This document shows, in pieces, positions 26,502 through 64,000 of a stretch of DNA of 64,000 nt. Source of the DNA: Sphagnum magellanicum (Eukaryota; Streptophyta; Sphagnopsida; Sphagnales; Sphagnaceae). The stretch spans positions 17,459,347 through 17,523,346 of the forward strand of contig CM038922.1 of the NCBI GenBank assembly GCA_021904315.1. The letters are read 5' to 3'. Position 1 is the first letter of the stretch, and every line of letters begins with the position of its first letter. Position numbers and translations under genes: made by a program. The notes under the pieces were generated by a model. The model was not told where the DNA came from, searched no databases, and saw only the letters and a list, made by a program, of their open reading frames with translations.

Positions 26502-26688
26502 CAACAACAATTTAATGGAGAAATAATAACAATACACAAAAAGAACTGCAAATGTACTCTGAACAACCCCAAAATTGCAAACCAATATCAAGGTATTGCA
26601 ATACCCTTTAGAGGGAAGTTAATTAGATGCCTAAATTTTCATTTCTACCAGCAACTATGTAGATTAAATGTTATAGTGTGGCCCAAAC

Positions 26689-26960
26689 CAGTGTTGTATG
26701 GGTATCATCAGAAATGGCACCAAACCCCCACCTATTATAAGGGCAGTTCTTTGAAATCATAACCACTGTTCCCAGAAAATCAGAGAACAGGTTCTGATAT
26801 ATTATCCATCATTCCTCAAAAAGTAATAACATTAATGAAAGTACCCCCAAGAAATGCATGATTCTTTGTCAGTTATTTCATGAGAACTGCAAGTTCTTGA
26901 GTGTTTGAAATAACCAAGACCAAAGGTTCTATGGTTCTGATTTTTTGTTTCCCCAAAAAC
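26689..26960. repeat. hAT-type MITE-like repeat inside the duplication
   Basis: Begins CAGTGTTGTATGGG and carries the same internal words as the element at 25,000 (AGTTCTTTGAAATCATAACC, GTTCTGATATATTATCC, GTTCTATGGTTCTGATTTTT). No right end or target duplication was found. The partner at 48,365-48,625 lacks about 95 bp at the right side. It was therefore present before the duplication. Confidence 0.5.
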
Positions 26961-27203
26961 CTCTGGTTCGGGTTATTTCAAAAACTCAAAGAACCTGCAA
27001 TTCTTTGATTAAAATTTCTAAAAGCAGGAACTGGGGCTTATTTAAACAAAATCAAATGCCTCTACAAAACTGGTCCAAATGATTGTCAAGACAATATTGC
27101 AGTTTAGCATGACTCATCATGTTATTGCATTTGAAATTCAAAAAATAATAACTTTTGAATGTTGGGTTTCAAGTCAGATTACGAAAATTGATGCATTTCA
27201 ATC

Positions 27204-27641
27204 TCAAACAAATCTAACTTTCTGTATTGGGCTTTTGGTGTTCCACAAATCATAGTTGAAGTACCTGGATATGGGATTTTTTGTGAATTCACCATCTTCG
27301 AACTTGATGATGATTTCTGTATTTTCTATCATCTCATCAGTTGACACACCCAACACAGCTTCCTTACCATGCCACACTCGGAGTGTCTTGTATGAGTCAT
27401 TTGGGTCAACCGCACTTTGTACTAAGAAGTCAGGGTTGTCAACAACACTTGTTTCTCGCACCTTGGTGTTAGTTACTAAGTTGAGATCTGATGCTGCTGC
27501 TTCTGATGATGATGATGCTGGTGGTGGTTTAGGTTTTAGCTCCTTCAATCGAGCTTGAGCTCCATTTGAAGTCACTTCATATACCACAAGGTTTTTATCT
27601 GTGTCATTCACCAATGTTGTGTACAATTTCCCCTTTGTCAT
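27204..27641 (-). CDS. small protein of unknown function, copy 1
   Basis: A 145 residue protein starting MTKGKLYTTLVNDTDKNLVV. The ATG at 27,641-27,639 is the first after an in-frame stop four codons upstream of the GTG at 27,650, so it is the likely start. The N-terminal third (TTLVNDTDKNLVVYE) looks like a beta strand-rich start. A low-complexity linker follows (KPKPPPASSSSEAAASD, about residues 37-53). The C-terminal half (DPNDSYKTLRVWHGKEAVLG, later FEDGEFTKNP) is mixed and globular-looking. There is no signal peptide or membrane segment. The frame is intact in both duplicates, with four amino-acid and about two silent changes by eye, too few to test selection. An acceptor-like TTTGTATATATTGCAG lies about 60 bp upstream (about 27,710 on the minus strand), so a 5' untranslated exon is possible. 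I do not recognise the family with confidence. Confidence 0.55.
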   Translation of the reverse strand: MTKGKLYTTLVNDTDKNLVVYEVTSNGAQARLKELKPKPPPASSSSEAAASDLNLVTNTKVRETSVVDNPDFLVQSAVDPNDSYKTLRVWHGKEAVLGVSTDEMIENTEIIIKFEDGEFTKNPISRYFNYDLWNTKSPIQKVRFV

Positions 27642-27829
27642 TGACTTCACTTTTGCTTGTCAAAAGCAAAGCAAAAGCTCTCTTTGAATACCAGTGATTA
27701 TCAGCTTGTCCTGCAATATATACAAAGGAAAATGTTTCAATGTTACAAGAGAGATCTTGTTGGTCGCTTGGGTTTTTCCAAGATGCTTGAGCATTGGGTG
27801 ACAAGCAAAACGACAATGGAAATCACAAA

Positions 27830-28215
27830 AATTCTGAATAAAATCCGGGACAGAATTCTGAGCAAAATCCTGAACAAAATCTGGAGAAAAATCATCAAAA
27901 AACTCCTGATCATGTGTCTGTTGTTGCTTACAAGGTGCTTACCAGTTATGAGCTTTTTGTTGCACTTTGATGGCTTGCACAATGTGACAGTGCTGCAACA
28001 CAGCAAGATGATGATTGACAGGGTAAAAGTATAGCTGCAAACTCACAGCTGAGAAGTATCTTCTTATCTCCAATCTTTGCCCTTCTGTTTTTGGATTTGT
28101 CTTTTATGCTTCTTCCTTTGATTCCAATCTCTCCTTGAAGGATTTGTCCTTGTGCTTCTTCGTTTGATTCCAGTCTCTTCTTGAAAGATTTGTCCTTTGA
28201 TTCCAATCTCTCCTT
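27830..28215. repeat. short-period tandem repeats upstream of the small gene
   Basis: At 27,830-27,880 a 12-14 bp word of the form AAAATCCTGAAC/AAAATTCTGAAT repeats about five times. At 28,115-28,215 the words TTTGATTCCAATCTCTCCTT and GAA(G/A)GATTTGTCC alternate three times. They make lysine/isoleucine-rich and lysine/glutamate-rich frames, which I treat as repeat artefacts. The same structure is present at 49,404-49,790. Confidence 0.5.
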
Positions 28216-28340
28216 GAACCAGCTGAAATGGAAATTTCTTTCTTTGTGCCTTCTACTCCACAATCTGCTCATGCAAAAACCTGCAAATGTGTCCAAAGAT
28301 ATAGTTTTAGTATATTTTCTAGCAGAACTTGCAACTTCTA

Positions 28341-28585
28341 ATCTTGAAGCAGCAGCAGTGGCTGTAGTAGTGCGCTTTCATTTGTCGAATGAATCCAGAT
28401 TCAATTTGTATCTTGATGCAACAACATAGTGCTCTTTTGTTGTTGAACGTATCCGGAAACAAATTATATCTCAAAGCAGCAGAGTAGCACTCTTTTTGTT
28501 GTGGAATGAATCAAGGATTGCTTTTTATCTTGAAGCACTGGCAGAAGAAGTGCTCCTTTTATTGTGGAATGAATCCAGAATCCAA
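28341..28585. repeat. four-unit minisatellite, 58-69 bp unit
   Basis: Units start at about 28,341, 28,410, 28,468 and 28,527. Each runs ATCTTGAAGC, AGCAG, GTGCTC-TTTT, TTGT-GAATGAATCC. Units are diverged from each other yet nearly unchanged in the second genomic copy (49,915-50,159), so the array predates the segmental duplication. It lies upstream of the small gene on that gene's strand. Confidence 0.6.
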
Positions 28586-29250
28586 CAAGTCAGCAGTCAT
28601 CAGATGTCAACATGAGGATCCAGGTGAAGACTATTCAAGGTCTTTGGATCTCTCAATATGATGTGAAGAAGAATTGGAGACTACGAAGCTCTTTGGTATC
28701 TCATGGTCTGAAAAACTCAAGACTATCAAGAAGGTCTCTTGATCTCGTTCAGGAGCAGGATCTTTTCTCTTTCCATCCCTCTCTCTCTCCTCTCCTCTCT
28801 CTCAATGTGCTTTTTACATTCAAGCAATCTGCGGCCATGTTAGACATGTGTACCTTTGAAGCTTTTGTTTCATAGTGGAGAGAACTTAAAAAACTTGCTG
28901 TTGCAAAAGAGCTTTGAAATGAACACTGAGAACTGTGACTATTGGAGGCTTAGCAGTGAGGGATAGTGCAAGGCAGGGCCGCAAGATTTTCCTGGCAAAA
29001 GATGGTATTCAACAAAGACCACAGCAGTGAGCACCACGCACGCTCTGAAACACACTGTAAAACCTAATTAACTGGTACAAACTCGTTCTTCCCCGCGTTG
29101 ATGGCTCCAGTACTCTTTTCTTCACTATCCTTTTGTGTGCTACCTAGAACCGTTTCTCCTACTTCCCGCAGAATCAGCTTCTAAGGTTTTGGTCTTTCTA
29201 TATTTCAAGCAAACAATAAGCCTCTTCCTCGACGGGATAGACTTCTTCCG

Positions 29251-29288
29251 CCTCCTCCTCCTCCTCCTCCTCCTCCTCCTCCTCCTCC
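29251..29288. repeat. (CCT)n microsatellite
   Basis: About 12-13 units. The partner tract at 50,825-50,847 is 15 bp (five units) shorter. It creates poly-leucine and poly-arginine frames that are not genes. Confidence 0.8.
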
Positions 29289-30049
29289 GCTTGTTTCTCA
29301 CTCCGGTTCCCGTTCCTCTTTCCCGCAAGACAATCAACTATTTTCTCCTCTTCCTTTTTTGCTCTGTTTCAAACAGATAGCGACAAACTCTTCCTCAACT
29401 TGTTTCTCCTCTTCCTTATGCTCTAATAAGAACTTGCCTATTTTCTTTCAAGCACACAGTCAGACTCTAATGTCCTTGTTTACTTACTGGATTGACCTCC
29501 GCGGCTGCATCATCATCATCCTCCTCAATCGCTTGCACGAGTATCAAAGCCCGAAGCTCCACGATCAGCAACTATAGCGACACAAACCACTGCCAATGTC
29601 TCCTGAAATCTTCCTTCAACGCTCATACAATTGCTGCAAATTCCTATTCTCCAACAACAGACAAAGAGAGAAAGAAAAATTATATGCACCTGTCGTGGAG
29701 ACTAACAACAACCAGTGCTGCTCGCCCTTCTTGTTGTTGTTGTTGTTGTATTATCTTGTTCTTCTCCACCTCCTCCTCTCTCCTGTCGACTTGAAAAGTT
29801 CTTAGGAGGAGCTCCAAAAGCATCTTACCGACACTTGCAAAAGCACTCTGGCATTTTACTTGTGGAATTGGTGGGGTTTTGATGATGAATGAATGAATCC
29901 CTGCCAAACTTTTATTAACGAAAAGGCACCAATCTGGAAGGAGAAATGGATGATCATTTACTTATTTCTTTATTTTAGTTTTTGGGGTTCCATTGCAACC
30001 CAAGAAAATGTGTCAAGGGTAGCTGCTGACTCCGACAATGTGTTTTTTT

Positions 30050-30685
30050 TTTGGGGTCAATTTTGTGATTTAGCCAAAGTGGCCATCATCCATGCCAAGA
30101 TTTAGTCTAATTTGGCTACACGCATAATATGAAAGTAGATTTTCTTAAATATTCTTCTATATTTTTGGCTACCTACTTGAACCAGGTATAGAAAATTTGA
30201 AATTAAAAAAAAATTGGTCGAATTCTGGCTATTGAAAATAGCAAATAGCACTTGATTTTAGCAATTTTAATTTTTAATTTCACTTTTTGGCTGTAGCCAG
30301 CCGGAAAAAAGGCTATCGCTGAGTCACTGACCCTATTATTGCACCTTTAACAACCAATGTTTTTCTTAGCGATTTCTGTTTATAGCTCAAGTGCCAATCA
30401 TTCATTGGAAGATGTAAAAAAAGTGGCAATCATCCCTAGAAAGATTTAGCCAAATATGGCTATAAACCATAAATAAAGTCCAAATCTTTAATCATCCTTC
30501 TATATGTCTGACTACACAATGAAAAGCAAATAAACAAATCAGGTGATTTTTTACTTTTTTTCCCCCCTCATTTCTGGCGAGTGAAAAGCTCCAAAATCAC
30601 TTCTTTTTCAAACTTTTAGTTTTTAATTTCGCATTTTTTTTGGCGAAATTTCGCCAGTTAAAAGAAAGGGCTCTTAATAAGAACA
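30050..30685. repeat. tandem pair of TAGCCAAA/TTTGGCTA repeats
   Basis: Two related units, about 30,050-30,320 and 30,410-30,685, each with TTTAGCCAAA near the left, CTTCTATAT with GGCTAC or GACTAC in the middle, and a GGC-rich right part. They match the reverse strand of 15,925-16,060. The same pair is at 51,630-52,250. Confidence 0.45.
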
Positions 30686-30925
30686 TGTTTTAAGATATTG
30701 ATCTTGTGATACAAAAATATTTCTTGTTGAAATTTTGGTATGTAGGTAGCACCTATGGATTCCTATTATGGCTATTGAAACCCCAATTTTCAGAATTAAA
30801 GTACAAATATATGATAAGTATGTGAAAATTTGGGGCTTACAACTAACTTAATCAATGTCAAATGAGTTCATCATTTTTCTCCCTATGACTGCACACTTCA
30901 TGGGACAACTTGTTGAACTGCACAA

Positions 30926-31109
30926 AATCAATTCTTCAAATGTAGAGCAAGCAAATTGCTCAAACAAAAAAAAAGCCCTATCAATTCTTCAATTTCTAAA
31001 GTAAGCACATTGCTCCCAGTAAAAAAAAAATAACAAAATCAATTGTGTAATTTCTAAAACAAGGACATAGGTTAAGCAAAGCTCACAACTGAACCTTTGA
31101 ATCTAGAGT
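30926..31109. repeat. 48-55 bp minisatellite, truncated at the duplication break
   Basis: Three units plus the start of a fourth, each beginning near AATCAATTCTTCAA and containing TCTA-AGCAAGCAAATTGCTC. In copy 2 the same array continues to about six units (52,495-52,785). Copy 1 switches inside unit four, at TTTGAATCTAGAGT, to the ankyrin-side DNA. Confidence 0.65.
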
Positions 31110-33368
31110 TTTGTAATTTTGATTTGTTAGGTTTGTTAGCTATGGATTATCTTCCAAAGGTTGTTGTAAGTTTAGAAAGTCCTTGTTAAACATACAAATC
31201 ATTGTCACATAGATTTTGTAGTCTTATAAAAAAATCCTTTGTGCCCAATATCCAACTTTTGCTTGGTATACTACATTGATAAATTTCATTTTTTTTTTCC
31301 CAACTACAAGGTGTAAGTTTAAGTCCTAAGGAGTTCAACAAGCCAGGTCTTTTGTCTTTTACAAGGTGGAGCAAAGTAGTTGAGAGTAGAAAACTTGTAC
31401 AAAAAATTCCTAGCACGACAAATGAACACATTGTTACTAATAATGTGTGTTATGAAAGCTCATGGGTTAAATACCCACTTCTTGAATAATTAAAATGTGG
31501 TTGTATTTGAATATAATAATTTGCCAATTTGAGTAACAACAAACACAAACATGTTGGATTTAATGACAATGACAATTAGATTATATATGGAAAATGGCAT
31601 TATTAAATTCCAGAAACATATTCATAATAATGTACTTTTTAATTTTTCACATTTTCTTCTTACATTCTTTAGTTACCTAACACTTTCTACTTGATACATT
31701 TGCAAACCTTGCATCCAATTTTTCATTTTGTCTTATTACAATAGCCTTTTCACAATAATTTTATTTGAATGGTTGAAATATCTTTTGTTAGAAGATTATT
31801 ATATTGTATAAAACATTATAATATATGACCACCAAAATATCTATCATCTATGTTTCAAATTAACAAGTTTGTGTTGTAGCTATGTTAAAATTTCATTGCC
31901 ATTAAATGGCCACAAGTGACATGATGAAATATTCGAATATTTTGTTAACATGACAAAATATGCTTGTGCTATCAGAAAATATTTCGCCACATTGAAAATG
32001 TGTCAAAAAATATTTTTGTGACATGGTAAAAATATATAATAAAATATTTGTTTTTGCTCATCTTCACAAGCAATCATGTTCATAGACTTGTGAAATAACA
32101 TTCCCCATTTGTAACTTACAAATTGGTGATAAAAAAACAAATCAAGTTTTAAAACCTTGGCTTGAATAATTTTATTTTTCCCCTAAAGTATTCACACAAA
32201 GATGAGATGGAGATAAAACTAGGGAAATTAAGACTAGTAGAAACATGTTCATGTAAAGAAAAAAATTATTTGTAATGACAATATTGTGAAGGGAAGAACT
32301 GGTATAGGTGAGATCAATATAAGGTCAAAACAGTAGGATCAAGTACAAATGTCCACATATATAAGTTGATGTGTTAATTGTTATCTTGAAGTTTCCATGG
32401 CTTGTGTAAAGTAGGATCTCTTAGTCTTTTTATTTATCGTCTAGCAAAAGGGAATAATTTTGGATTATGAACATCCCCATTCTCAAACTTCAAGTACAAA
32501 ATCTATTATGCAAATGAGAATAATAATTGTTCACATTTGATTTGATTTGATTTTTTTTAGGCTCATTTAAATTTTGCAAGGTTGAAATCCAATCTGCTCT
32601 TTATTTGTAAAAAAGTTTGGGATTTATTTTGTTAAATGACCATTTTTAGAGGTATTAGATAATTGTCCGATCTTTTTTTTATCGTCCTATTATTATTTAA
32701 TTTTTTAATGTATACATATTACAACCATCATGTATTAATTATAATTCATTATTTCAAATTGTTGCATACCTTATATTATAATTAAATTGATTATTTGAAT
32801 AAAATGTACCTTTTTAAAAACTAATTAATTTATAATTTCTACTCAACAACCAATATATTGCACCCTATTTTTACTCACCTATTTTTTACTTTTCTTCCCC
32901 CCGCCCCCAAATTCTATCTATTATTTCAACTTGTAAACATGTACATCAACATAAATAATGTCATCAATTGTTATGCTATGCACACTTAATTTTCTTGGAA
33001 CCACATTCAATAATTTATGATTTCATCACTTTATGATTTTCTCTCAACTAAGTCCACCATTTCTACTTCATTAATTTCTGTTGCTCTAGTAAAATCCAAA
33101 ATATTCTTAGTTTCACACCTGGCTCTAATATCATGAAAAGATTGGATATGAAACTAGAAACTTAGAGAGAGATTATATATATATATATATATACAACAGA
33201 AAAAAACATTTGTCATGTATATTTATAATTTTAGGTGTGACAAAGGTCATTTCTTATGTCCAAGTAGAGCGTCCACCAAATGAAATACATAGTCCAAATA
33301 ACTAGTTACAACAAAGGGTAATTTTAAACTAACGACCTATTCCCTCATACATCCCAACTTCGATAGAA
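31110..33368. other. 3' flank of ankyrin gene 1
   Basis: AT-rich non-coding DNA homologous to 57,411-60,597 but clearly more diverged (about 85% near 31.2 kb, about 91% near 32.2 kb by eye) than the DNA on either side. It contains a TA microsatellite at 33,174-33,193. The site CATTC at 31,663-31,667 is the unfilled target of the solo LTR in copy 2. Confidence 0.6.
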
Positions 33369-35429
33369 TCATCGCTCCCCATCACTCCCCATCACTCCCA
33401 TAGACTTGCTTTCTGGAATGCTTGGCTCGTCGCCCATTAGTGATCCCATTCTTGAACCTGGATAGTGTGCAGGGTTTATGATTGTTCTGTAATACCTTTC
33501 AACTCGTGTAAGTAAATGTTTGTACAAGAACTCCCTACTTCTGAAATCTATATACAAGAAAAATGGACTGTAGGCTCTTGCAAGTCTTCGTAAAAAGCCA
33601 ACTAAGAAGTTCAAACAGAAAGTTCCTCCAATACCTATAGTGACTATGATTCTCCTCTTATATTTGATACTAGGAGCGTAATAAAATGCTGCAGTTGCAA
33701 AAGCTCCTATGGCACATGAAATTGAAATTGCCAAACAGAAGGAAGCTGCATGAATTGTGTGTCGAATATCGGCAATTGTGCTGCCTCTACTCGGCAGGGC
33801 AGCACCTGCTGCAGCAAGTAATGTTGACATGGCAAACAAGAAAGACAAGCTGCTGAACACCCAAAAGAGAGTGGACTCGGCAACTGTGATTAGTGACCAT
33901 GCATTGAACGTCACTGTCGCAAGAAGTGCAGCAACCACCAAAATTGCATTCGCAGCACCTGCATAATCCTCGCGAGTACCATACAACCCACAGCGCTCTA
34001 AATAGTTTTGCAACTTATCCACCGCTTTGTACTCAGGTTGTTGAAAAGCAACGTCCCAAGCCGACTTTCCTTTCGAGTCCTTCATATCAAGATTGACTTT
34101 GTGCGCCCCCTCTTCTAATATCAGATTCATTAATTCATAGTCTCTATACTCTATAGTGCTGTGGATTGCGCTCTTTCCTTCATGGTCAGTCTGGTTTATA
34201 TTTTCTGGGCAATTTGTCTTCATATGTCTGATTAGTCTTCTTATTATCCATGTCAATTCTTCTGAATGATCTTTTTCGCTAATTCTTTTGTGTACAGCAA
34301 GGAGAAGAGGTGTCTCTCCCTCATTGGATTTAACACTGACATCTATGGTACTGTTATAATATTCCCCCGCACTTGGTTTCCACTCTAAAAGCCTTTCCAG
34401 CCTTCTTTTGAATTTGCCCCTTACAGCAAAGTGTAATGGAGTTTTACCATCGTTGGACACCGCATTGGCATTCATAGAGTTGCGACCCATCTCTGAGTTC
34501 ATTATCATATCGATCACCTCGTAACGAGGTTGTTGAAAAGCGACTTCCCAAGCCGACTTTCCTTCCGAGTCCTTTATATCGAGATTGACTTTGTGACCCC
34601 CGTGTTCTAATATCAGATTCATTAATTCATAGTCTCTAGACTCTATACTGATGTGGATTGCGCTCTTTCTTTTATGGTCAGTCTGGTTTATATTTTCTGG
34701 GCAATTAGTCTTGATATGTCTGATTAGTCTTCTTATTATCCATGTCAATTCTTCTGAATGATCTTCTTCGCTAATTCTTTTGTGTACAGCAAGGAGAAGA
34801 GGTGTCACTCCCTCATTGGATTGAACACTGACATCTATGGTACTGTTATGATATTCCCCCACACTTGGTTTCCAATCTAAAAGCCTTTCCACGGTTCTTT
34901 TGCATTTGCGCCTTACAGCAAAGTGTAATGGAGTGACACCATCTCTGGACACCGCATTGGCATTCATAAAGTAGCGACCCTGACATGAGTCCATCAACAT
35001 ACGGATCATAACGCCGTGATTTACAGGTGAACGGCAAGCCATGTGCAAAGGTGTGTAACCAAATTTGTCCTGAACATTAATGTCCAGTTCTAAACTTCCA
35101 TACGTTAATATGAATTCCACAATTTCCTCCTGCCCATTGGCAACTGCCATATGCAATGCTGTTCTACCCGGACAAACAACATATTCGCCATCCATACATA
35201 GCGTATCCTCTCTACGCGCATCCGGCTGTTGAGGTGTGAGCCCATGTTCGGCCCAACGTGAGTCAACCTTAACGTGAAAGTTCAGGTCAACACCACTCCA
35301 TAATTGCTTGAATTTCTCAATGGGTCCATCCCTGGCTGCTTCCATCATTTCTTTTACACGATTTGCATCAAGGTCGGAAAAATGGGATTCATTCCGACGT
35401 GCAAAGAATGTCGGCTGGCTCGGATCCAT
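33369..35429 (-). CDS. ankyrin-repeat transmembrane protein (PGG/ACD6-like), two-module form
   Basis: A 686 residue plant ankyrin-TM protein. Relatives such as ACD6 and ITN1 act at the plasma membrane in salicylate defence or salt-stress signalling; the role here is inferred. Ankyrin units are seen at residues 88-108 (GRTALHMAVANGQEEIV) and from 123 (FGYTPLHMAC). Two near-identical 164 residue modules follow at 156-319 and 320-about 475. Each contains TPLHFAVR, TPLLLAVHKR, KSAIHISIE and GKSAWEVAFQQP. The C-terminal domain starts AGAANAILVVAALLATVTFN (from 490), which fits the PGG domain but lacks the PPGG residues, and has four membrane segments (about 489-510, 522-545, 561-582, 594-613). The start is the first ATG; the frame is open 25 more codons upstream and then meets a TGA with no ATG, so a spliced upstream exon is possible. 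Stop TGA at 33,371-33,369. Confidence 0.9.
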   Translation of the reverse strand: MDPSQPTFFARRNESHFSDLDANRVKEMMEAARDGPIEKFKQLWSGVDLNFHVKVDSRWAEHGLTPQQPDARREDTLCMDGEYVVCPGRTALHMAVANGQEEIVEFILTYGSLELDINVQDKFGYTPLHMACRSPVNHGVMIRMLMDSCQGRYFMNANAVSRDGVTPLHFAVRRKCKRTVERLLDWKPSVGEYHNSTIDVSVQSNEGVTPLLLAVHKRISEEDHSEELTWIIRRLIRHIKTNCPENINQTDHKRKSAIHISIESRDYELMNLILEHGGHKVNLDIKDSEGKSAWEVAFQQPRYEVIDMIMNSEMGRNSMNANAVSNDGKTPLHFAVRGKFKRRLERLLEWKPSAGEYYNSTIDVSVKSNEGETPLLLAVHKRISEKDHSEELTWIIRRLIRHMKTNCPENINQTDHEGKSAIHSTIEYRDYELMNLILEEGAHKVNLDMKDSKGKSAWDVAFQQPEYKAVDKLQNYLERCGLYGTREDYAGAANAILVVAALLATVTFNAWSLITVAESTLFWVFSSLSFLFAMSTLLAAAGAALPSRGSTIADIRHTIHAASFCLAISISCAIGAFATAAFYYAPSIKYKRRIIVTIGIGGTFCLNFLVGFLRRLARAYSPFFLYIDFRSREFLYKHLLTRVERYYRTIINPAHYPGSRMGSLMGDEPSIPESKSMGVMGSDGER
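34005..34964 (-). repeat. two 492 bp ankyrin modules in gene 1
   Basis: Module boundaries taken at the NANAVS codons: 34,964-34,473 and 34,472 to about 34,005 (the last is shortened where it joins the membrane domain). The spacing of the shared word GGTTGTTGAAAAGC on the plus strand is exactly 492 bp. The modules are far more alike than separate ankyrin repeats usually are. Confidence 0.85.
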
Positions 35430-36267
35430 TCTGGGATTCTGTTGTCTTGTTGTGCTTTTCGAAGGCGTGCCCTGAGCCGTCCCACTCACTATAGTTGGAC
35501 TCAAACAAATTTGCCGAATTGGTCAACGTCCACCTGAATATGCTTCTAGCCGATGATCACCTCCTGTTTCTCTAGCTCACAATATCAGCCGTTTTCCCTT
35601 GCTTTTGGAACTACTGGTGCTTGGCACCTTGCAGTGCGTTTGATGTTCTGCAGCACATAATATTGTTCATTAGTGTGAAGTCGATCTCAACAACTTGGAT
35701 AAGACAACTTTGAGAAATTTACTGTGCAAAAGAAAATTATGACCCTACTTGTAATATCATTTTCAAAATTTAAGCAGTTTCTTCGCCTATTATGCATAGG
35801 CACCAGGAGTTCACTTCTCAGTCTTTGAACTTATAGCAATTTGGTATAATTGACACCCATCAAATTGACCGCCTTGCACCTCTAGAACACGGAGGAGAGA
35901 TCAAAAACTTGCAATAAACCAACCAAGACCTTGGAAGGTCGGCATCAACGAGCCTAGATTGATGACAGATTGAAAAATGTTTGATGACAGTTCTTTCACA
36001 CCAAATAGCAGAAACATTCAACAAAAAGCTCTATACTTCCATTCTCGCATGAGCATCTATTCCACATGCAAAGAGGCTAGCTACCAAGAGCCCGAGAACT
36101 CAAAGTTGTCACTTATTTTAGCAGAAGAAGTCACAAGTTTCTTAACTAATTTTCTTAGGTACACATGACCTTGTTGGACAGTCAATCGGGAGCAAAGGTT
36201 CATATAAACACACCTAATTTGAACGCTCGACGTCCATCAGATGTCTGAAGGCTAGCTACAAGCTCAC
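35430..36267 (-). promoter_or_regulatory. conserved 5' flank of ankyrin gene 1 (putative promoter/5' UTR)
   Basis: About 840 bp upstream of the ATG that match the 5' flank of gene 2 (63,154-64,000) at about 98% by eye, much better than the 3' flanks match. Small differences include a short indel near 35,665. I could not fix a TATA box or transcription start. Recent duplication or conversion explains the similarity without needing selection. Confidence 0.35.
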
Positions 36268-37371
36268 TGCTAGCAATATTGATCTAACAATATTGATGGC
36301 GCTGGCGCCCGCATGAAATGCCTCCTAACCTGCACATAATGTAAGTAACACAAGTTTCAAAATATATAAGTTGTGATGAACAAAACACATGAATTGTGGG
36401 ATCTTGTACAATGAGGCATGCATGGAACACACTGAAATTTGAATAGCATCTCAAAACTAATGTATTACCAATCTAGAAAGGTTGGTCGATTAGTTTTGTT
36501 GTAGAAGTTAAGGATTTCATTTATTGATCTCATCTGGAAAGTTTCATAATCTTTAATGATTGCTCTGAAACTGAGTATCTACTCCAGAAAGAAGGAGTTT
36601 TTATACAACTCCCTGTGTGCAATGTGGGAATGCTCTTAGTTATCCCTGTTAGAAATAGCTCTTAGAACCAATGTCAAAGGAAAATTCGCTTCTCACAATA
36701 GGTGCTTTCCAACCAAGGAAAAATTACCAACTTCTCCTTTGACATTGGTTCACAGTATCCTTCTAGATGGCATAATTGAACTTTCCATGTGAGGCTGCCT
36801 GGGAATGTTGCAAAACTTCCTATGTTGCACAATTCCTTGTTGCTTGCGTTTCTAGTCTATTCTTGGAGGTAAAATTAGACAATTTTTCCACAAGGGAATC
36901 ATCCAACAGCCTCTTGCGAAAATTCTTCTTACATTGGAATGAACGAACTAAGTCAATTTGCTCTTACATTTTCTTCACGCAGTTAACAAACGAAGTTCCT
37001 ATGAAGCTGAACGACTTCCTTAAAACTATTTCACTTGGGGGCCATCTGCATCCAGCTAGTACGTTAAAAGTTCAAACCAGTGCATGCCAAAAACAAAAGA
37101 TCTCAAAACATGTGCATAAGAGATAGTGCAAGCCAAAAAAAAAGATCTTGAACACGTGCATAGAAGATGAGTCAATAGATTCGAGTAAATGCACAACATC
37201 AAGTGTGACATATGTTTAGCAACGTCTCGGGGGAATAGACAAATGTCGAACAAATTGATTGCAAAGATCTAGAACCCGACAATGAGGAAGCAGTATTCAT
37301 TCAGATAACACTGGAAAACAACAGATAGCATCATCTTGCTTCATGAAAATGACCGCAATATGTATGGGCGT
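36268..37371. other. spacer upstream of ankyrin gene 1
   Basis: Its partner in copy 2 lies beyond the window. A 116-codon plus-strand frame (36,776-37,126) has no recognisable similarity. Contains the foldback at 36,665-36,752. Confidence 0.4.
36665..36752. repeat. short foldback with 17 bp perfect arms
   Basis: GAACCAATGTCAAAGGA at 36,665-36,681 is the exact reverse complement of 36,736-36,752, with a 54 base loop. Pairing does not extend in either direction. It may be a small MITE remnant or a transcribed hairpin. Confidence 0.6.
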
Positions 37372-48179: not shown

Positions 48180-48364
48180 CAACAACAATTTAATGGAGAA
48201 ATAATAACAATACACAAAAAGAACTGCAAATGTACTCTGAATAACCCCAAAATTGCAAACCAATATCAAGGTATTGCAATACCCTTTAGAGGGAAGTTAA
48301 TTAGATGCCTAAATTTTCATTTCTACCAGCAACTATGTAGATTAAATGTTAGTATGGTCCAAAC

Positions 48365-48625
48365 CTGTGTTGTATGGGTATCATCAGAAATGGCACCAAA
48401 CCCCCACCTATTATAAGGGCAGTTCTTTGAAATCATAGCCACTGTTCCCAGAAAATCAGAGAACAGGTTCTGATATATTATCCATCATTCCTCAAAAAGT
48501 AATAACATTAATGAAATTACCCCCAAGAAATGCACAATTCTTTGTCAGATATTTCATGAGAACTGCAAGTTCTTGAGTGTTTGAAATAACCAAAACCAAA
48601 GGTTCTATGGTTCTGATTTTTTGTA
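48365..48625. repeat. hAT-type MITE-like repeat, copy 2
   Basis: Partner of 26,689-26,960, with a changed first base block and about 95 bp missing on the right relative to copy 1 (join at TTTTTTGT-ATCAAATGCC). Confidence 0.5.
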
Positions 48626-48777
48626 TCAAATGCCTCTACAAAGCTGGTCCAAATGATTGTCAAGACAATATTGCAGTTTAGCATGACTCATCATGTTATT
48701 GCATTTGAAATTCAAAAAATATTAACTTTTGAATGTTGGGTTTCAAGCCAGATTAGAAAAATTGATGCATTTCAATC

Positions 48778-49215
48778 TCAAACAAATCTAAATTTCTGTA
48801 TTGGGCTTTTGGTGTTCCACAAATCATAGTTGAAGTACCTGGATATGGGATTTTTTGTGAATTCACCATCTTCGAACTTGATGATGATTTCTATATTCTC
48901 TATCATCTCATCAGTTGTCACACCCAACACAGCTTCCTTACCATGCCACACACGGAGTGTCTTGTATGAGTCATTTGGGTCAACCGCACTTTGTACTAAG
49001 AAGTCAGGGTTGTCAACAACACTTGTTTCTCGCACCTTGGTGTTAGTTACTAAGTTGAGATCTGATGCTGCTGCTTCTGATGATGATGATGCTGGTGGTG
49101 GTTTAGGTTTTAGCTCCTTCAATCGAGCTTGAGCTCCATTTGAAGTCACTTCATATACCACAAGGTTTTTATCTGTGTCATTCACCAATGTTGTGGACAA
49201 TTTCCCCTTTGTCAT
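48778..49215 (-). CDS. small protein of unknown function, copy 2
   Basis: Duplicate of the gene at 27,204-27,641: 145 residues from MTKGKLSTTLVNDTDKNLVV, same length, same start context and same stop. It differs at four residues (Tyr to Ser near residue 6, Ser to Thr and Thr to Ile in the LGV-TDEMIEN-EI stretch, Val to Phe near the C-terminus). Intact frames in both copies support a real gene, but the copies are so recent that an untranslated frame could also have survived. Upstream minisatellites and the CCT tract are also duplicated. Confidence 0.55.
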   Translation of the reverse strand: MTKGKLSTTLVNDTDKNLVVYEVTSNGAQARLKELKPKPPPASSSSEAAASDLNLVTNTKVRETSVVDNPDFLVQSAVDPNDSYKTLRVWHGKEAVLGVTTDEMIENIEIIIKFEDGEFTKNPISRYFNYDLWNTKSPIQKFRFV

Positions 49216-49914
49216 TGACTTCACTTTTGCTTGTCAAAAGCAAAGCAAAAGCTCTCTTTGAATACCAGTGATTATCAGCTTGTCCTGCAATATATACAAA
49301 GGAAAATGTTTCAATGTTACAAGAGAGATCTTGTTGGTCGCTTGGGTTTTTCCAAGATGCTTGAGCATTGGGTGGCAAGCAACACGACAATGGAAATCAC
49401 AAAAATTCTGAATAAAATCCTGGACAGAATTCTGAGCAAAATCCTGAACAAAATCTGGAGAAAGTTCATCAAAAAAATCCTGATCATGTGTCTGTTGTTG
49501 CTTACAAGGTGCTTACCAGTTATGAGCTTTTTGTTGCACTTTGATGGCTTGCACAATGTGACAGTGCTGCAACACAGCAAGATGATGATTGACAGGGTAA
49601 AAGTATAGCTGCAAACTCACAGCTGAGAAGTATCTTCTTATCTCCAATCTTTGCCCTTCTGTTTTTGGATTTGTCCTTTATGCTTCTTCCTTTGATTCCA
49701 ATCTCTCCTTGAAGGATTTGTCCTTGTGCTTCTTCGTTTGATTCCAGTCTCTTTTTGAAAGATTTGTCCTTTGATTCCAATCTCTCCTTGAACCAGCTGA
49801 AATGGAAATTTCTTTCTTTGTGCTTTCTACTCCACAATCTGCTCATGCAAAAACCTGCAAATGTGTCCAAAGATATAGTTTTAGTATATTTTCTAGCAGA
49901 ACTTGCAACTTCTA

Positions 49915-50159
49915 ATCTTGAAGCAGCAGCAGCGGCTGTAGTAGTGCGCTTTCATTTGTCGAATGAATCCAGATTCCATTTGTATCTTGATGCAACAACA
50001 TAGTGCTCTTTTGTTGTTGAACGTATCCAGAAACAAATTATATCTCAAAGCAGCAGAGTAGCACTCTTTTTGTTGTGGAATGAATCAAGGATTGCTTTTT
50101 ATCTTGAAGCACTGGCAGAAGAAGTGCTCCTTTTATTGTGGAATGAATCCAGAATCCAA
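49915..50159. repeat. four-unit minisatellite, copy 2
   Basis: Same four units as 28,341-28,585, differing at only a few bases. Confidence 0.6.
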
Positions 50160-50824
50160 CAAGTCAGCAGTCATCAGATGTCAACATGAGGATCCAGGTG
50201 AAGACTATTCAAGGTCTTTGGATCTCTCAATATGATGTGAAGAAGAATTGGAGACTACGAAGCTCTTTGGTATTTCATGGTCTGAAAAACTCAAGACTAT
50301 CAAGAAGGTCTCTTGATCTCGTTCAGGAGCAGGATCTTTTCTCTTTCCATCCCTCTCTCTCTCCTCTCCTCTCTCTCAATGTGCTTTTTACATTCAAGCA
50401 ATCTGCGGCCATGTTAGACATGTGTACCTTTGAAGCTTTTGTTTCATAGTGGAGAGAACTTAAAAAACTTGCTGTTGCAAAAGAGCTTTGATATGAACAC
50501 TGAGAACTGTGACTATTGGAGGCTTAGCAGTGAGGGATAGTGCAAGGCAGGGCCGCAAGATTTTCCTGGGAAAAGTTGGTATTCAACAAAGGCCACAGCA
50601 GTGAGCACCACGCAGGCTCTGAAACACACTGTAAAACCTAATTAACTGGTACAAACTCGTTCTTCCCCGCGTTGATGGCTCCAATACTCTTTTCTTCACT
50701 ATCCTTTTGTGTGCTACCTAGAACCGTTTCTCCTACTTCCCGCAGAATCAGCTTCTAAGGTTTTGGTCTTTCTCTATTTCAAGCAAACAATAAGCCTCTT
50801 TCTCGACGGGATTGACTTCTTCCG

Positions 50825-50847
50825 CCTCCTCCTCCTCCTCCTCCTCC
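50825..50847. repeat. (CCT)n microsatellite, copy 2
   Basis: About 7-8 units, five fewer than the partner at 29,251-29,288. A second CCT tract near 51,329-51,346 is longer than its partner near 29,769. Confidence 0.8.
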
Positions 50848-52494
50848 GCTTGTTTCTCACTCCGGTTCCCGTTCCTCTTTCCCGCAAGACAATCAACTAT
50901 TTTCTCCTCTTCCTTTTTTGCTCTGTTTCAAACAGATAGCGACAAACTCTTCCTCAACTTGTTCTTCCTCTTACTTATGCTCTAATAAGAACTTGAATGT
51001 TTTCTTTCAAGCACACAATCAGACTCTAATGTCCTTGTTTACTTACTGGATTGACCTCCGCGGCTGCATCATCATCATCCTCCTCAATCGCTTGCACGAG
51101 TATCAAAGCCCGAAGCTGCACGATCAGCAACTATAGCGACACAAACCACTGCCAATGTCTCCTGAAATCTACCTTCAATGCTCATTCAATTGCTGCAAAT
51201 TCCTATTCTCCAACAACAGACAAAGAGAGAAAGAAAGCTTATGTGCACCTGTCGTGGAGACTAACAACAACCAGTGCTGCTCGCCCTTGTTGCTGTTGTT
51301 GTTGTAGTAGTATTATCTTGTTTTTCTCCTCCTCCTCCTCCTCCTCTCTCCTGTCGACTTGAAAAGTTCTTAGGAGGAGCTCCAAAAGCATCTTACCGAC
51401 ACTTGTAAAAGCACTCTGGCATTTTACTTGTGGAATTGGTGGGGTTTTGATGATGAATGAATGAATCCCTGCCAAACTTTTATTAAAGAAAAGGCACCAA
51501 TCTGGAAGGGGAAATGGATGATCATTTACTTATTTCTTTATTTATTTTTTATTTTTTGGGTTCCATTGCAACCCAAGAAAATGTGTCAAGGGCAGCTGCT
51601 GACTCCGACAATGTGTTTTTTTTTTGGGGGTCAATTTTGTGATTTAGCCAAAGTGGCCATCATCCATGCCAAGATTTAGTCTAATTTGGCTACACGCTTA
51701 ATATGAAAGTAGAATTTCTTAAATATTCTTCTATATTTTTGGCTACCTACTTGAACCAGGTATAGGAATTTGGAAATTAAAAAAACAAATTGGTCGAAGT
51801 CTGGCTATTGAAAATAGCAAATAGCACTTGATTTTAGCAATTTTAATTTTTAATTTCACTTTTTGGCCGTAGCCAGCCGGAAAAAAAGGCTATCGCTGAG
51901 TCACTGACCCTATTATTGCACCTTTAACAACCAATGTTGTTCTTAGCAATTTCTGTTTGTAGCTCAAGTGCCAATCATTTCATTGGAAGATGTAAAAAAA
52001 GTGGCAATCGTCCCTAGAAAGATTTAGCCAAATTTGGCTATAAACCATAAATAAAGTCCAAATCTTTAATCATCCTGCTATATATTTGACTACACAATGA
52101 AAAGCAAATAAACAAATCAGGTGATTTTTTACTTTCTTTTTCCCCCTCATTTCTGGCGAGTGAAAAGCTCCAGAATCATTTCTTTTTCAAATTTTTAGTT
52201 TTTAATTTCGCTTTTTTTGGGAGAAATTTCGCCAGTTAAAAAAACTGCTCTTAATAAGAACATGTTTTAAGATATTGATACAAGAATATTTCTTGTTGAA
52301 ATTTTGGTATGTAGGTAGCACCTATGGATTCCTATTATGGCTATTGAAACCCCAATTTTCAGAATTAAAGTGCAAATATATGATAAGTATGTGAAAATTT
52401 GGGGCTTACAACTAACTTAATCAATGTCAAATGAGTTCATCATTTTTCTCCCTATGACTGCACACTTCATGGGACAACTTGTTGAACTGCACAA

Positions 52495-53205
52495 AATCAA
52501 TTCTTCAAATGTAGAGCAAGCAAATTGCTCAAACAAAAAAAAAGCCCTATCAATTCTTCAATTTCTAAAGTAAGCACATTGCTCCCAGGAAAAAAGAAAA
52601 AAACAAAATCAATTGTGTAATTTCTAAAGCAAGGACATAGGTTAAGCAAAGCTCACAATTGAACCTTTGAATCTAGAGTGAACAAGGAAATTGTTGAAAC
52701 ATGTACAATCAATTCTTGGAATCTAGAGGAAACAAATTGCTTAAACAAAGGTACAATCAATTCTTCAAAATCTAGAGCAAATAAATTGATCAATCCTTCC
52801 CTCATGGACTAAAACCATTCCTTTGCATCATGAGTATAATAATATAATGACAATTTAAAATAATCAAACTTTCACACAAAGCACAAATTAATCAGTCAAT
52901 TATAAAGTTGACAAATTGGTTCAATCAAGTCATTCAATTCCTAAAGAAAGCAAGTCATTCAAGCAATTATGATCAAATCTTCAAAGAAAGCACAATTAAA
53001 CCTTCAAATACAGAGCGAGCAAATTGCTCAAACAAAATATTCTTCAACTATGTGCTTTAGAAACTGAAGAATTGATTATGCTTTTGTTTGAGCAATTTGG
53101 TTGCTTTATATTTGAAGAATTTGTTGTGCATTGTTTAAAGATTTGATCTTGTTATGTTTGAGCAAATTTCTTGCTCTAGATTTGAAGAATTTGGTTGCAC
53201 TTTGT
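52495..53205. repeat. 48-55 bp minisatellite ending in an inverted array
   Basis: About six direct units (52,495-52,785) of the form AATCAATTCTTCAA then TCTAGAGCAA, CAAATTGCTTAAACAAA. Scattered relatives run to 53,035, followed at 53,040-53,205 by about three units in the opposite orientation (TTTGTTTGAGCAATTTGGTT, GCTCTAGATTTGAAGAATTT). The two orientations could fold into a large cruciform or hairpin. Copy 1 of the duplication breaks inside the fourth direct unit. Confidence 0.6.
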
Positions 53206-60597: not shown

Positions 60598-63153
60598 CTA
60601 ATAATTGCTTTCTGGAATGCTTGACTCGTCGCCCATTAGTGATCCCATTCTTGAACCTGGATGCTCTGCAGGGTTTATGATTGTTCTATAATACCAGTGT
60701 TTTAGGTCCACTACAAATTTGCGTCCCATCAGCCACCTTTCAACTGGTGTAATTATATGTTTGTACAAGAACTCCCTACTTCTGAAATCTGTATACAAGA
60801 AAATTGGACTGTAGGCTCTTGCAAGTCTTCGTACAAAGCCAACTAAGAAGTTCAAACAGAAAATTCCTCCAATAGCTATAGTGACTATGACTCTCCTCTT
60901 ATATTTGATACTAGGAGCGTAATGAAACGCTGCAGTTGCAAAAGCTCCTATGGCACATGAAATTGAAATTGCCAAACAGAAGGAAGCTGCATGAATTGTG
61001 TTTCGAATATCGGCAATTGTGCTGCCTCTACTTGGCAGGGCAGCACCTGCTGCAGCAAGTAATGTTGATATGGCAAACAAGAAAGACAAGCTGCTGAACA
61101 CCCAAAAGAGGGTGGACTCGGCAACTGTGATTAGTGACCATGCATTGAATGTCACCGTTGCAAGAAGTGCAGCAACCACCAAAATTGCATTGGCAGCACC
61201 TGCATATGCTTCCGGATTACCATACAACCCAACGCGCTCTAAATAGTTTTGCAATTTACACACCACTGCGTAATGAGGTTGTTGACAAGCGACTTCCCAA
61301 GCCGACTTTCCTTCCGAGTCTTTTATATCGAGATTGACTTTGTCACCCCCCTCTTCTAATATCAGATTCATTAATTCATAGTCTCTATACTCTATACTGA
61401 TGTGGATTGCGCTCTTTCTTTTATGGTCAGTCTGGTTTATATTTTCTGGGCAATTAGTCTTGATGTGTCTGATTAGTCTTCTTATTATCCATCTCAATTC
61501 TTCTGAATGAAACTTTTCGCCAATTCTTGAGTGTACAGCAAGGAGAAGAGGTGTCACTCCCGCATTGGATTTAACACTGACATCTATGGTCCTGTTATAA
61601 TATTCCCCCGCACTTGGTTTCCACTCTAAAAGCCTATCCACGGCTCTTGTGAATTTGCTCCTTACAGCAAAGTGTAATGGAGTTTCACCATTTTTGGACA
61701 CCTCATTGGCATTCACAAAGTTGAAATCAATGTTTGAGTGCACCAATATATCGATCACATAGTAACGAGGTTGTTGAAAAGCGACTTCCCAAGCCGACTT
61801 TCCTTCCGAGTCCTTTATATAGAGACTGACTTTCTCACCCCCCTCTACTAATATCAGCTTCATTAATTCATAGTCTCTAGACTCTATACTGATGTGGATT
61901 GCGCTCTTTCTTTCATGGTCAGTCTGGTTTATATTTTCTGGGCAATTAGTCTTGATATGACTGATTAGTCTTGTTATTATCCATGTCAATTCTTCTGAAT
62001 GATCTTCTTCGCTAATTCTTTTGTGTACAGCAAGGAGAAGAGGTGTCTCTCCCTTATTGGATTTAACACCGACGTCTATGGTACTGTTATAATATTCCCC
62101 CGCACTTGGTTTCCACTCTAAAAGCCTATCCACGGCTCTCATGAATTTGCTCCTTACAGCAAAGTGTAATGGAGTTTCACCATTTTGGGACACCACATTG
62201 GCATTCACAAAGTTGAAATCAATTTTTGAGTCCAACAACATATCGATCACATCGTAACGAGGTTGTTGAAAAGCGACTTCCCAAGCCGACTTTCCTTCCG
62301 AGTCCTTTATACCGAGATTGACGTGGTAACCCCACTCTTCTAATATCAGATCTATTAATCCATAGTCTTCAGACTCTATACTGATGTGGATTGCGCTCTT
62401 TCTTTCATGGTCAATCTGGTTTATATTTTCTCGGCAATTAGTCTTGATATGACTGATTAGTGTTCTTACTATCCATGTCAATTCTTGTGAATAAATTTTT
62501 TCGCTATTTCTTTTGTGTAAAGCAAGGAGAAGAGGTGTCTCTCCCTCATTGGATTTAACACCGACGTCTATGGTACTGTTATAATATTGCCCCGCCCTTG
62601 GTTTCCACTCTAAAAGCTTTTCCACGGCTCTTTTGAATTTGCCCCTTACAGCAAAGTGTAATGGAGTTTCACCATTGTTGGACACCTCATTGGCATTCGC
62701 AGAAATGAGATCAATGTTGGAGCCCAACAACATATCGATCACAGCGCCGTGACTTGCAGGTGAATGGCAAGCCATGTGCAAAGGTGTGTAACCAAATTTG
62801 TCCTTAATGTTCACTCGTACATCACGAACCCCGCATATGAAGCGCACAATTTCCTCCTGCCCATTGGCAACTGCCATATGCAATGCTGTTCTACCCGGAC
62901 AAACAACATATTTGCCATCCACACGTAGCGTCTCCTCTCTACGTGCATCCTGCTCTTGAGGGTGCCCAAGTTCGGCCCCACGTGAGTCAACCTTAACGTG
63001 AAAGTTCAGGTCAACACCACTCCATAATTTCTTGAATGTCTCAATGGGTCCATCCCTGGCTGCTTCCATCATTTCTTTTACACGATTTGCATCAAGGTCG
63101 GAAGAATGGGATTCATTCCGACGTGCAAAGAATGTAGGCTGGCTCGGATCCAT
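60598..63153 (-). CDS. ankyrin-repeat transmembrane protein (PGG/ACD6-like), three-module form
   Basis: An 851 residue paralogue of the gene at 33,369-35,429. After N-terminal ankyrin units (GRTALHMAVANGQEEIV, FGYTPLHMAC) it has three 164 residue modules at residues 153-316, 317-480 and 481-about 640, one more than gene 1. The membrane domain begins AGAANAILVVAALLATVTFN (from 651), with four predicted segments at about 650-671, 683-706, 722-743 and 755-774. Compared with gene 1 it has 14 extra residues (WLMGRKFVVDLKHW, 807-820; 42 bp at 60,694-60,735) near the C-terminus and ends earlier (SIPESNY, then TAG). The start is the first ATG after an in-frame TGA at 63,249-63,247. A membrane defence or stress role is inferred from ACD6/ITN1. 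No disabling change is seen. Confidence 0.9.
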   Translation of the reverse strand: MDPSQPTFFARRNESHSSDLDANRVKEMMEAARDGPIETFKKLWSGVDLNFHVKVDSRGAELGHPQEQDARREETLRVDGKYVVCPGRTALHMAVANGQEEIVRFICGVRDVRVNIKDKFGYTPLHMACHSPASHGAVIDMLLGSNIDLISANANEVSNNGETPLHFAVRGKFKRAVEKLLEWKPRAGQYYNSTIDVGVKSNEGETPLLLALHKRNSEKIYSQELTWIVRTLISHIKTNCRENINQIDHERKSAIHISIESEDYGLIDLILEEWGYHVNLGIKDSEGKSAWEVAFQQPRYDVIDMLLDSKIDFNFVNANVVSQNGETPLHFAVRSKFMRAVDRLLEWKPSAGEYYNSTIDVGVKSNKGETPLLLAVHKRISEEDHSEELTWIITRLISHIKTNCPENINQTDHERKSAIHISIESRDYELMKLILVEGGEKVSLYIKDSEGKSAWEVAFQQPRYYVIDILVHSNIDFNFVNANEVSKNGETPLHFAVRSKFTRAVDRLLEWKPSAGEYYNRTIDVSVKSNAGVTPLLLAVHSRIGEKFHSEELRWIIRRLIRHIKTNCPENINQTDHKRKSAIHISIEYRDYELMNLILEEGGDKVNLDIKDSEGKSAWEVACQQPHYAVVCKLQNYLERVGLYGNPEAYAGAANAILVVAALLATVTFNAWSLITVAESTLFWVFSSLSFLFAISTLLAAAGAALPSRGSTIADIRNTIHAASFCLAISISCAIGAFATAAFHYAPSIKYKRRVIVTIAIGGIFCLNFLVGFVRRLARAYSPIFLYTDFRSREFLYKHIITPVERWLMGRKFVVDLKHWYYRTIINPAEHPGSRMGSLMGDESSIPESNY
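61234..62697 (-). repeat. three 492 bp ankyrin modules in gene 2
   Basis: Modules at 62,697-62,206, 62,205-61,714 and 61,713 to about 61,234, defined from the NANxVS codons. The shared word GGTTGTTG recurs at 61,277, 61,769 and 62,261, exactly 492 bp apart both times. Codon phase is kept, so module gain or loss does not shift the frame. Confidence 0.9.
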
Positions 63154-64000
63154 TCTGGGATTCTGTTGTCTTGTTGTGCTTTTCGAAGGCGTGCCCTGAG
63201 CCGTCCCACTCACTATAGTTGAACTCAAAAAAATTTGGCGAATTGGTCAACGTCCACCTGAATATGCTTCTAGCCGATGATCACCAACTGTTTCTCTAGC
63301 TCACAATATCAGCCGTTTCCCCTTGCTTTTGGAACTACTGGTGCCTGGCACCTTGCAGTGCGTTTGATGTTCTGCAGCACATAATATTGTTTCATCATGT
63401 CATTAGTGTGAAGTCGATCTCAACAACTTGGATAAGACAACTTTGAGAAATTTAGGGTGCAAAAGAAAATTATGACCCTACTTGTAATATCATTTTCAAA
63501 ATTTAAGCAGTTTCTTCGCCTATTATGCATAGGCACCAGGAGTTCACTTCTCAGTCTTTGAACTTATAGCAATTTGGTATAATTGACACCCATCAAATTG
63601 ACCGCCTTGCACCTCTAGAACACGGAGGAGAGATCAAAAACTTGCAATAAACCAACCAAGACCTTGGAAGGTCGGCATCAACGAGCCTAGATTGATGACA
63701 GATCGAAAAATGTTTGATGACAGTTCTTTCACACCAAATAGCAGAAACATTCAACAAAAAGCTCTATACTTCCATTCTCGCATGAGCATCTATTCCACAT
63801 GCAAAGAGGCTAGCTACCAAGAGCCCGAGAACTCAAAGTTGTCACTTATTTTAGCAGAAGAAGTCACAAGTTTCTTAACTAATTTTCTTAGGTACACATG
63901 ACCTTGTTGGACAGTGAATCGGGAGCAAAGGTTCATATAAACACACCTAATTTGAACGCTCGACGTCCATCAGATGTCTGAAGGCTAGCTACAACCTCAC
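63154..64000 (-). promoter_or_regulatory. conserved 5' flank of ankyrin gene 2 (putative promoter/5' UTR)
   Basis: Matches 35,430-36,267 at about 98% by eye up to the window edge. Differences include a small indel near 63,390. No core promoter element could be fixed. Confidence 0.35.

Follow-up and report, generated by a model that had tools for sequence, protein, structure and literature searches.

The window, a stretch of 64,000 nucleotides of Sphagnum magellanicum (C16:17459347-17523346) taken from one 439-Mb assembly of 31 contigs, carries two genes of shared architecture, gene 1 and gene 2, in which ankyrin repeats precede a C-terminal part with four hydrophobic regions (Table 1). Both were translated as uninterrupted open reading frames (ORFs) with no internal stops, of 686 codons in gene 1 and 851 codons in gene 2, and matches to the Ank_2 profile (2.1e-40 and 1.1e-52, respectively) indicated that an ankyrin array is present in both. 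The arrays are repetitive in their DNA. TRF reported a period of 492 bp in 3.0 copies in gene 2 (61270-62743, score 2459) and in 1.9 copies in gene 1 (34035-34980, score 1654), scores that place the repetition far beyond chance, and repeat finding in the DNA gave head-to-tail copies in genes 1 and 2 at spacings of 492, 492 and 492. Self-alignment led to the same layout, which confirmed the claim of an earlier note on this DNA that gene 1 has two and gene 2 three in-frame units of 492 bp. Its further claim, that the ankyrin part changes length by multi-repeat blocks and the membrane part is kept, was also supported.

Table 1 Features of the two ankyrin genes and of the duplicated segment, in positions of the window
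Feature	Position	Strand	Basis
Gene 2, 851 aa, ankyrin repeats and C-terminal part with four hydrophobic regions	60598..63153	-	translation, Ank_2, hydropathy
Gene 2 N-terminal part (aa 1-137): N-terminus, ankyrin repeat 1, helix A of repeat 2	62743..63153	-	self-alignment, translation
Gene 2 block 1 (aa 138-301)	62251..62742	-	self-alignment at 164-aa shift, identities
Gene 2 block 2 (aa 302-465)	61759..62250	-	self-alignment, identities
Gene 2 block 3 (aa 466-629)	61267..61758	-	self-alignment, identities
Gene 2 membrane helices (aa 651-777), four hydrophobic regions, PGG-like	60823..61203	-	hydropathy maxima, PGG score, homology
Gene 1, 686 aa, architecture as gene 2 with two blocks	33369..35429	-	translation, Ank_2, hydropathy
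Gene 1 block 1 (aa 141-304)	34518..35009	-	self-alignment, identities
Gene 1 block 2 (aa 305-468)	34026..34517	-	self-alignment, identities
Gene 1 membrane helices (aa 490-612)	33594..33962	-	hydropathy, PGG scan
Duplicated segment with gene 1; partner, 57408 to beyond the window end	31107..36919	.	BLAST, stepwise profile

The five block copies are alike without being the same. The unit had been described as exact, which is true of its length only, because the copies are 86.6-92.3% identical in DNA and 70.1-82.9% identical in protein. The four motifs quoted for the unit fared likewise: TPLHFAVR is identical across all five copies (two in gene 1, three in gene 2), but TPLLLAVHKR (two and one), KSAIHISIE (one and three) and GKSAWEVAFQQP (one and two) are not in all of them. 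These differences bear on whether the extra block was mis-assembled. Such repeats are mishandled by short-read assemblies, as the accessible text of a study on Podospora NLRs relates (PMC12222747). The pairs of blocks differ at 38-66 of 492 positions and each block has private changes, whereas a duplicated contig end would be near-identical, and both genes are interior to an 18.3-Mb contig. Relative to the majority sequence, each copy has 20 to 38 changed positions, and a simple doubling in the assembly is therefore unlikely; we consider an artefact highly improbable.

Aligning either protein to its own sequence, displaced by 164 residues, located the start and the end of the likeness. The unit starts at helix B of ankyrin repeat 2 (VIDMLL...) and ends with helix A of the last repeat (...GKSAWEVAFQQPRY), the helix labels being taken from the ankyrin motif. 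One unit thus comprises three whole ankyrin repeats and two halves, and the halves fuse at a block junction into one hybrid repeat, so that 164 residues correspond to four, rather long, ankyrin repeats. Repeat 2 and the last repeat are broken at equivalent points, between helix A and helix B, so that the reading frame and the solenoid register are both kept, and the motif pattern shows that an added block should leave the solenoid in register. AlphaFold returned a mean pLDDT of 37.4 for gene 2, with gene 1 as the only other row, and of 36.5 for a 251-residue piece with five rows; with both models too low in pLDDT, the placement of residues on the surface rests on the motif register. A sequence search of solved structures gave varied ankyrin-repeat proteins and no plant ankyrin-transmembrane (ANK-TM) protein by name among the best 60 of 302 matches.

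The C-terminal parts were assigned to a family by profile and by homology, their four hydrophobic regions having been placed by hydropathy only. The PGG model (PF13962) stayed below its gathering score of 24.1 in the C-terminal pieces, with 15.9 bits for gene 2 and 15.4 bits for gene 1, and PGG was not listed at E 0.01 in the profile scan of the whole proteins. Only about 20 positions of the profile match, at the first helix, and the loop that gives PGG its name is absent when read by eye. Over a stretch of about 100 aa, the membrane part shares 37-44% identity with PGG genes on C6 and C2. Among six relatives scanned for PGG, two pass the cut-off (L046 with 40.9 and L052 with 35.6 bits) and L041, L042, L045 and L049 fall below it. 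The link to ACD6/ITN1 drawn earlier thus stands as homology to PGG-bearing paralogues, but not as a match to the PGG model itself. We class genes 1 and 2 with a PGG-derived ANK-TM subfamily, rather than as an ACD6 orthologue.

A protein search of the moss's own genome gave at least 85 matches, and 12 close loci were read for ORFs. One locus (L061) was a fragment and was left out. The 11 close paralogues that remained, on C3, C4, C6 and C18, have long single ORFs with one block each. DNA self-comparison of these 11 revealed no repeated ankyrin block; repeats in L044 lie outside the ankyrin part, where the C-terminus of this single-block ORF carries an eight-residue minisatellite, SSHGDDPT, in about seven copies. 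Extra weak matches (22-35% identity) that might have been second blocks in L047, L049-L051 and others were taken as likeness of one ankyrin repeat to another. When a tree was built with the modules of the 11 paralogues, the five blocks were set apart at 100/100 support and all modules of the relatives fell outside them, which answers the proposal that modules of other cluster members be compared. The single block in all 11 paralogues and this separation indicate that the expansion arose in the lineage of genes 1 and 2.

As a separate observation, a short stretch resembling YCxLEKQEVII... precedes the start codon in L041, L042, L044, L045, L049 and L051, where it is open and in frame. At 63154-63310, upstream of gene 2, a similar stretch is broken by stops, as judged by eye. 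One reading of it would be an old exon end or a leader.

Block expansion as a process is not unique in this genome. A PGG gene on C2 (L073, C2:32273000-32277500), with an ORF of 961 aa, contains three copies of a 383-bp stretch whose starts are separated by 824 and 939 bp; longer matches, of 646 and 838 bp, link pairs of copies. Shorter repeats of 72 and 34 residues are nested inside its multi-ankyrin stretch.

The tree of the five modules that had been proposed as a check on their history favoured grouping of the copies by gene, with most of the signal in the first 117 nt, but kept two position-wise trees over nt 118-492. With the whole block, the gene 1 copies paired at 94% bootstrap, and the three position-wise trees tried were all rejected by the AU test (p 0.031, 0.031 and 0.005). 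The first 117 nt alone clustered by gene at 93%, whereas nt 118-492 set blocks 1 and 2 of gene 2 apart from the other three blocks at 89%, and two of three position-wise trees were not rejected there (AU p 0.21 and 0.42). Grouping by gene is seen at 6 of the 19 two-way informative sites, all of them within nt 30-115, and three of the five three-way sites (16, 56 and 415) also pair the gene 1 copies. A by-gene signal that is strongest in the first 117 nt and weaker beyond them indicates a mosaic block history. Silent divergence was 0.024-0.075 between the copies of one gene and 0.026-0.094 between genes; values so nearly equal suggest that the block and gene duplications were close in time.

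A different history would begin with a three-block ancestor older than the gene duplication, followed by loss of one block in gene 1. The two position-wise trees that stand over nt 118-492 agree with it, as does the similar silent divergence within and between genes. It is opposed by the rejection of every position-wise tree tried on the whole block and by the 94% pairing of the gene 1 copies, and no informative site unites block 1 of gene 1 with block 1 of gene 2 alone, so that we regard such an ancestor as unlikely. The simplest reading would be that the block was duplicated at about the time when the gene was, that gene 2 duplicated a block once more, and that the copies exchanged some sequence.

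The segment that encloses the genes is itself mosaic. Past the start codon, its two copies are 98.6% identical over 838 bp of noncoding DNA (97-100% per 150-base step), and past the stop codon they are 87.4% identical over 741 bp of it (81-94% per step). Gene conversion or unequal exchange is a likely source of such a pattern. BLAST further aligned 26502-26948 and 27051-31109 with 48180-52679 at 97% identity; this duplicate of ~4.5 kb (26502-31109 and 48180-52679) adjoins the ankyrin genes and contains an ORF at 27204-27650 on the reverse strand.

The block copies diverged mainly through amino-acid change, and their dN/dS exceeds 1 by formal test. The ratio was above 1 in all 10 block pairs, with a range of 1.55-5.16 and a mean of 2.22 (codon bootstrap 1.43-3.90). 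Between gene 1 and gene 2 it was 1.22 in the N-terminal part and 0.77 in the C-terminal part (gene 2 aa 630 to the end). Counted against the majority base, the blocks have 133 replacement and 16 silent changes, that is, 89% replacement where the observed mutation spectrum leads to an expectation of 79% (binomial test, p = 7.6e-4; five positions have tied majorities). The excess persisted when only codons with a single change were counted (98:9 replacement to silent, p = 1.7e-4) and when changes with changed neighbours were also removed (70:6, p = 0.001), and the 133:16 of the blocks differs from about 26:12 in the C-terminal part (p = 0.004). Codon models gave a ratio of 2.94 on a star tree (LRT 15.5, p = 8e-5) and of 2.71 on a by-gene tree (p = 3.7e-4). 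None of 200 neutral simulations was as extreme as the observed LRT or ratio, the largest simulated LRT being 9.7. The signal was weaker in nt 118-492 alone (codon model 2.30, p = 0.012). Site model M2a was preferred over M1a with an LRT of 42.8 on the star tree and 30.7 on the by-gene tree, values from a fit that stopped at parameter bounds and from a test that recombination among copies can inflate. The blocks thus look as if they are diverging under positive selection, and the earlier suggestion that they diversify surfaces gains support from ratios above 1 in the blocks against 0.77 in the C-terminal part.

Other ankyrin genes served as yardsticks for these values. Sixteen ANK-TM genes on C6, C8 and C12, with ORFs as far as the loci hold them, gave 120 pairs, 118 of which passed the filter of ankyrin-part pS 0.02-0.25; the pairs are non-independent and compare genes, not blocks within a gene. 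Their dN/dS in the ankyrin part had a median of 0.82; it exceeded 1 in 20 pairs and 1.5 in none, with 1.37 as the maximum. In the membrane part the median was 0.78, and among the 30 of 124 pairs listed many exceeded 1, the highest at 2.49, on small numbers of silent changes. Ratios near 0.8 in both parts, and membrane parts often above 1, indicate that proteins of this family also change fast outside their ankyrin parts and that the contrast between the ankyrin and membrane parts of the C16 pair is not a family rule. In a survey of pepper ANK genes the ratio was likewise measured between paralogues, there over whole genes, and in its accessible part 22 of 23 pairs lie below 1 with a highest value of 1.05, compared with an average of 2.2 for the C16 blocks (PMC7055287). 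For the blocks of the C2 gene the ratios were 0.56, 1.36 and 3.21 in a slice of 122 residues, one of the three pairs being below 1. Short-block ratios in other genes, 0.60-5.11 (eight of nine defined), come from few sites and were not used as proof; the value of 5.11 belongs to the same C2 gene, in a slice other than the one that gave 3.21.

These yardsticks lend some weight to relaxed constraint, under which redundant blocks would drift neutrally or toward pseudogenes with dN/dS near 1. In the family both parts commonly have ratios near 0.8, membrane parts above 1 occur, and the noncoding DNA past the stop codon, at 87% identity, is about as diverged as the blocks. Drift would give a ratio of 1, not of 2-3, and it sits poorly with a lower bootstrap bound of 1.43, with 0 of 200 neutral simulations, with binomial tests that used the observed mutation spectrum (p = 7.6e-4 and 1.7e-4) and with ORFs intact over 851 and 686 codons. 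We consider relaxed constraint somewhat unlikely.

Variable residues make up 73 of the 164 positions of the block unit. They are dense at unit positions 5-25, the hairpin at the block start, where 14 of 21 positions vary (p = 0.035, for a stretch picked after viewing the data) and where 36 of the 117 residue changes fall. The next-densest place is the hairpin between the third and fourth repeats, with 10 of 15 positions variable. The evidence that changes are concentrated in the hairpin that opens each block is suggestive. When unit positions 5-25 were left out, the block pairs still averaged a dN/dS of 2.16 (1.24-4.95). The randomised positions of DARPins were tried as a predictor of variable residues, and no enrichment was found (12 of 24 against 73 of 164, p = 0.36). 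A binding surface is a plausible reading of the blocks.

The added length could also matter mechanically, as a longer spring or reach, with the sequence change secondary. Extra ankyrin repeats have been argued to act as a spring in TRP channels, and whole repeats were added here with the register undisturbed. Two other ANK-PGG genes have long arrays of very similar 34-residue ankyrin repeats, L069 (C7:9235500-9241500), with an ORF of 1821 aa, and L072 (C10:9707500-9712000), with one of 1032 aa. Among their repeats dN/dS averaged 0.64 (from 28 of 38 motif starts) and 0.85 (from 20 of 22), respectively. Such long regular arrays fit a spacer and are without the signal, and a spacer needs no dN/dS above 1; for the C16 blocks we hold this to be quite improbable.

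The reading that we favour, and consider reasonably probable, is that genes 1 and 2 belong to the plant ANK-TM family as tandem paralogues and that their ankyrin solenoid grew through tandem duplication of a four-repeat block. The breakpoints fall between helix A and helix B, leaving one hybrid repeat per junction. After duplication the blocks diverged chiefly by amino-acid replacement, with the C-terminal membrane part changing less, and the mosaic trees suggest some sequence exchange among block copies. The lengthened solenoid would serve as a binding surface under pressure toward new or changing partners, and the membrane helices may convert binding to a signal, as proposed for the channel-like ACD6 and LR14A.

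Among the genes with an effect on disease resistance are ANK-TM members such as ACD6 and Lr14a; to our knowledge, little is known about partner recognition by the ankyrin part of these proteins. A review reports calcium conduction by ACD6, its modulation by small proteins and a link to salicylic acid (PMC11387256). The available text on LR14A describes a race-specific rust resistance protein and proposed channel with 12 ankyrin repeats and six predicted helices, encoded in three exons, at a locus whose flanking tandem repeats are proposed as a substrate for unequal crossing-over (PMC7878491), and in grapevine a cluster of three ACD6-like genes at Rpv12 responds to downy mildew, as stated in the part available (PMC10200900). 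The C16 pair resembles ACD6 of Arabidopsis, LR14A of wheat and the Rpv12 cluster in joining an ankyrin solenoid to a C-terminal multi-helix membrane part. Like them it belongs to plant ANK-TM proteins found in tandem gene clusters, and its membrane part is homologous to PGG genes of the same genome. In contrast to ACD6 and LR14A, it has PGG below the cut-off, uninterrupted ORFs, four hydrophobic regions and tandem four-repeat blocks. By analogy with these proteins, we infer a putative immune-sensor or channel role for genes 1 and 2, an immune role for the C16 pair being at most a fair guess.

Growth by blocks of four is ordinary for ankyrin arrays. Bjorklund et al. 2006 describe repeats that often spread several domains at once and in mid-array, and ankyrin duplications in which four at a time is more dominant; in the accessible text, selection on the copies and one-block differences between paralogues lie outside its treatment (PMC1553488). 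Selection together with repeat-number change is already known for fungal NLRs with WD, ANK or TPR repeats (Podospora HNWD), where positive selection acts on repeat residues and repeat changes are proposed to rebuild the binding surface (PMC4986451, PMC12222747). As the available parts of these studies present them, fungal NLRs are NOD-like, without this membrane part, and exchange single, highly alike repeats, whereas the C16 pair has four-repeat blocks with 17-30% protein difference; highly conserved repeats account for 0.4% in plants (PMC4986451). Among the matches listed in a search of titles and abstract starts in the open-licence literature, we found no description of plant ANK-TM genes in which block duplication is combined with positive selection. 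We put forward tentatively, as a possible though doubtful generalisation, that plant membrane-anchored ankyrin proteins run a scheme like that of fungal NLRs, in which multi-repeat sensor blocks are copied, lost, exchanged and driven apart by selection, with the fixed membrane part as output. If this were true, two or more independent cases would be present in this genome, the C16 pair and the C2 gene among them.

The sequence test of selection strengthens the central idea of the earlier note. Two paralogues set one block apart, and diversifying selection that can be measured in their blocks, amount to a natural experiment on block swap or removal, and they suggest that block number, beside SNPs, may be worth scoring when ANK-TM loci are mapped for resistance.

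Other PGG genes of this genome have features of their own. A tandem cluster at C6:24.03-24.54 Mb contains 23 PGG matches in about 0.5 Mb, with many long single ORFs, some short ORFs and one with a stop. In two ANK-PGG genes, on C17 (L070) and C11 (L071), the ORFs run more than 200 residues past the membrane part, in a region that appears SPRY-like by eye.
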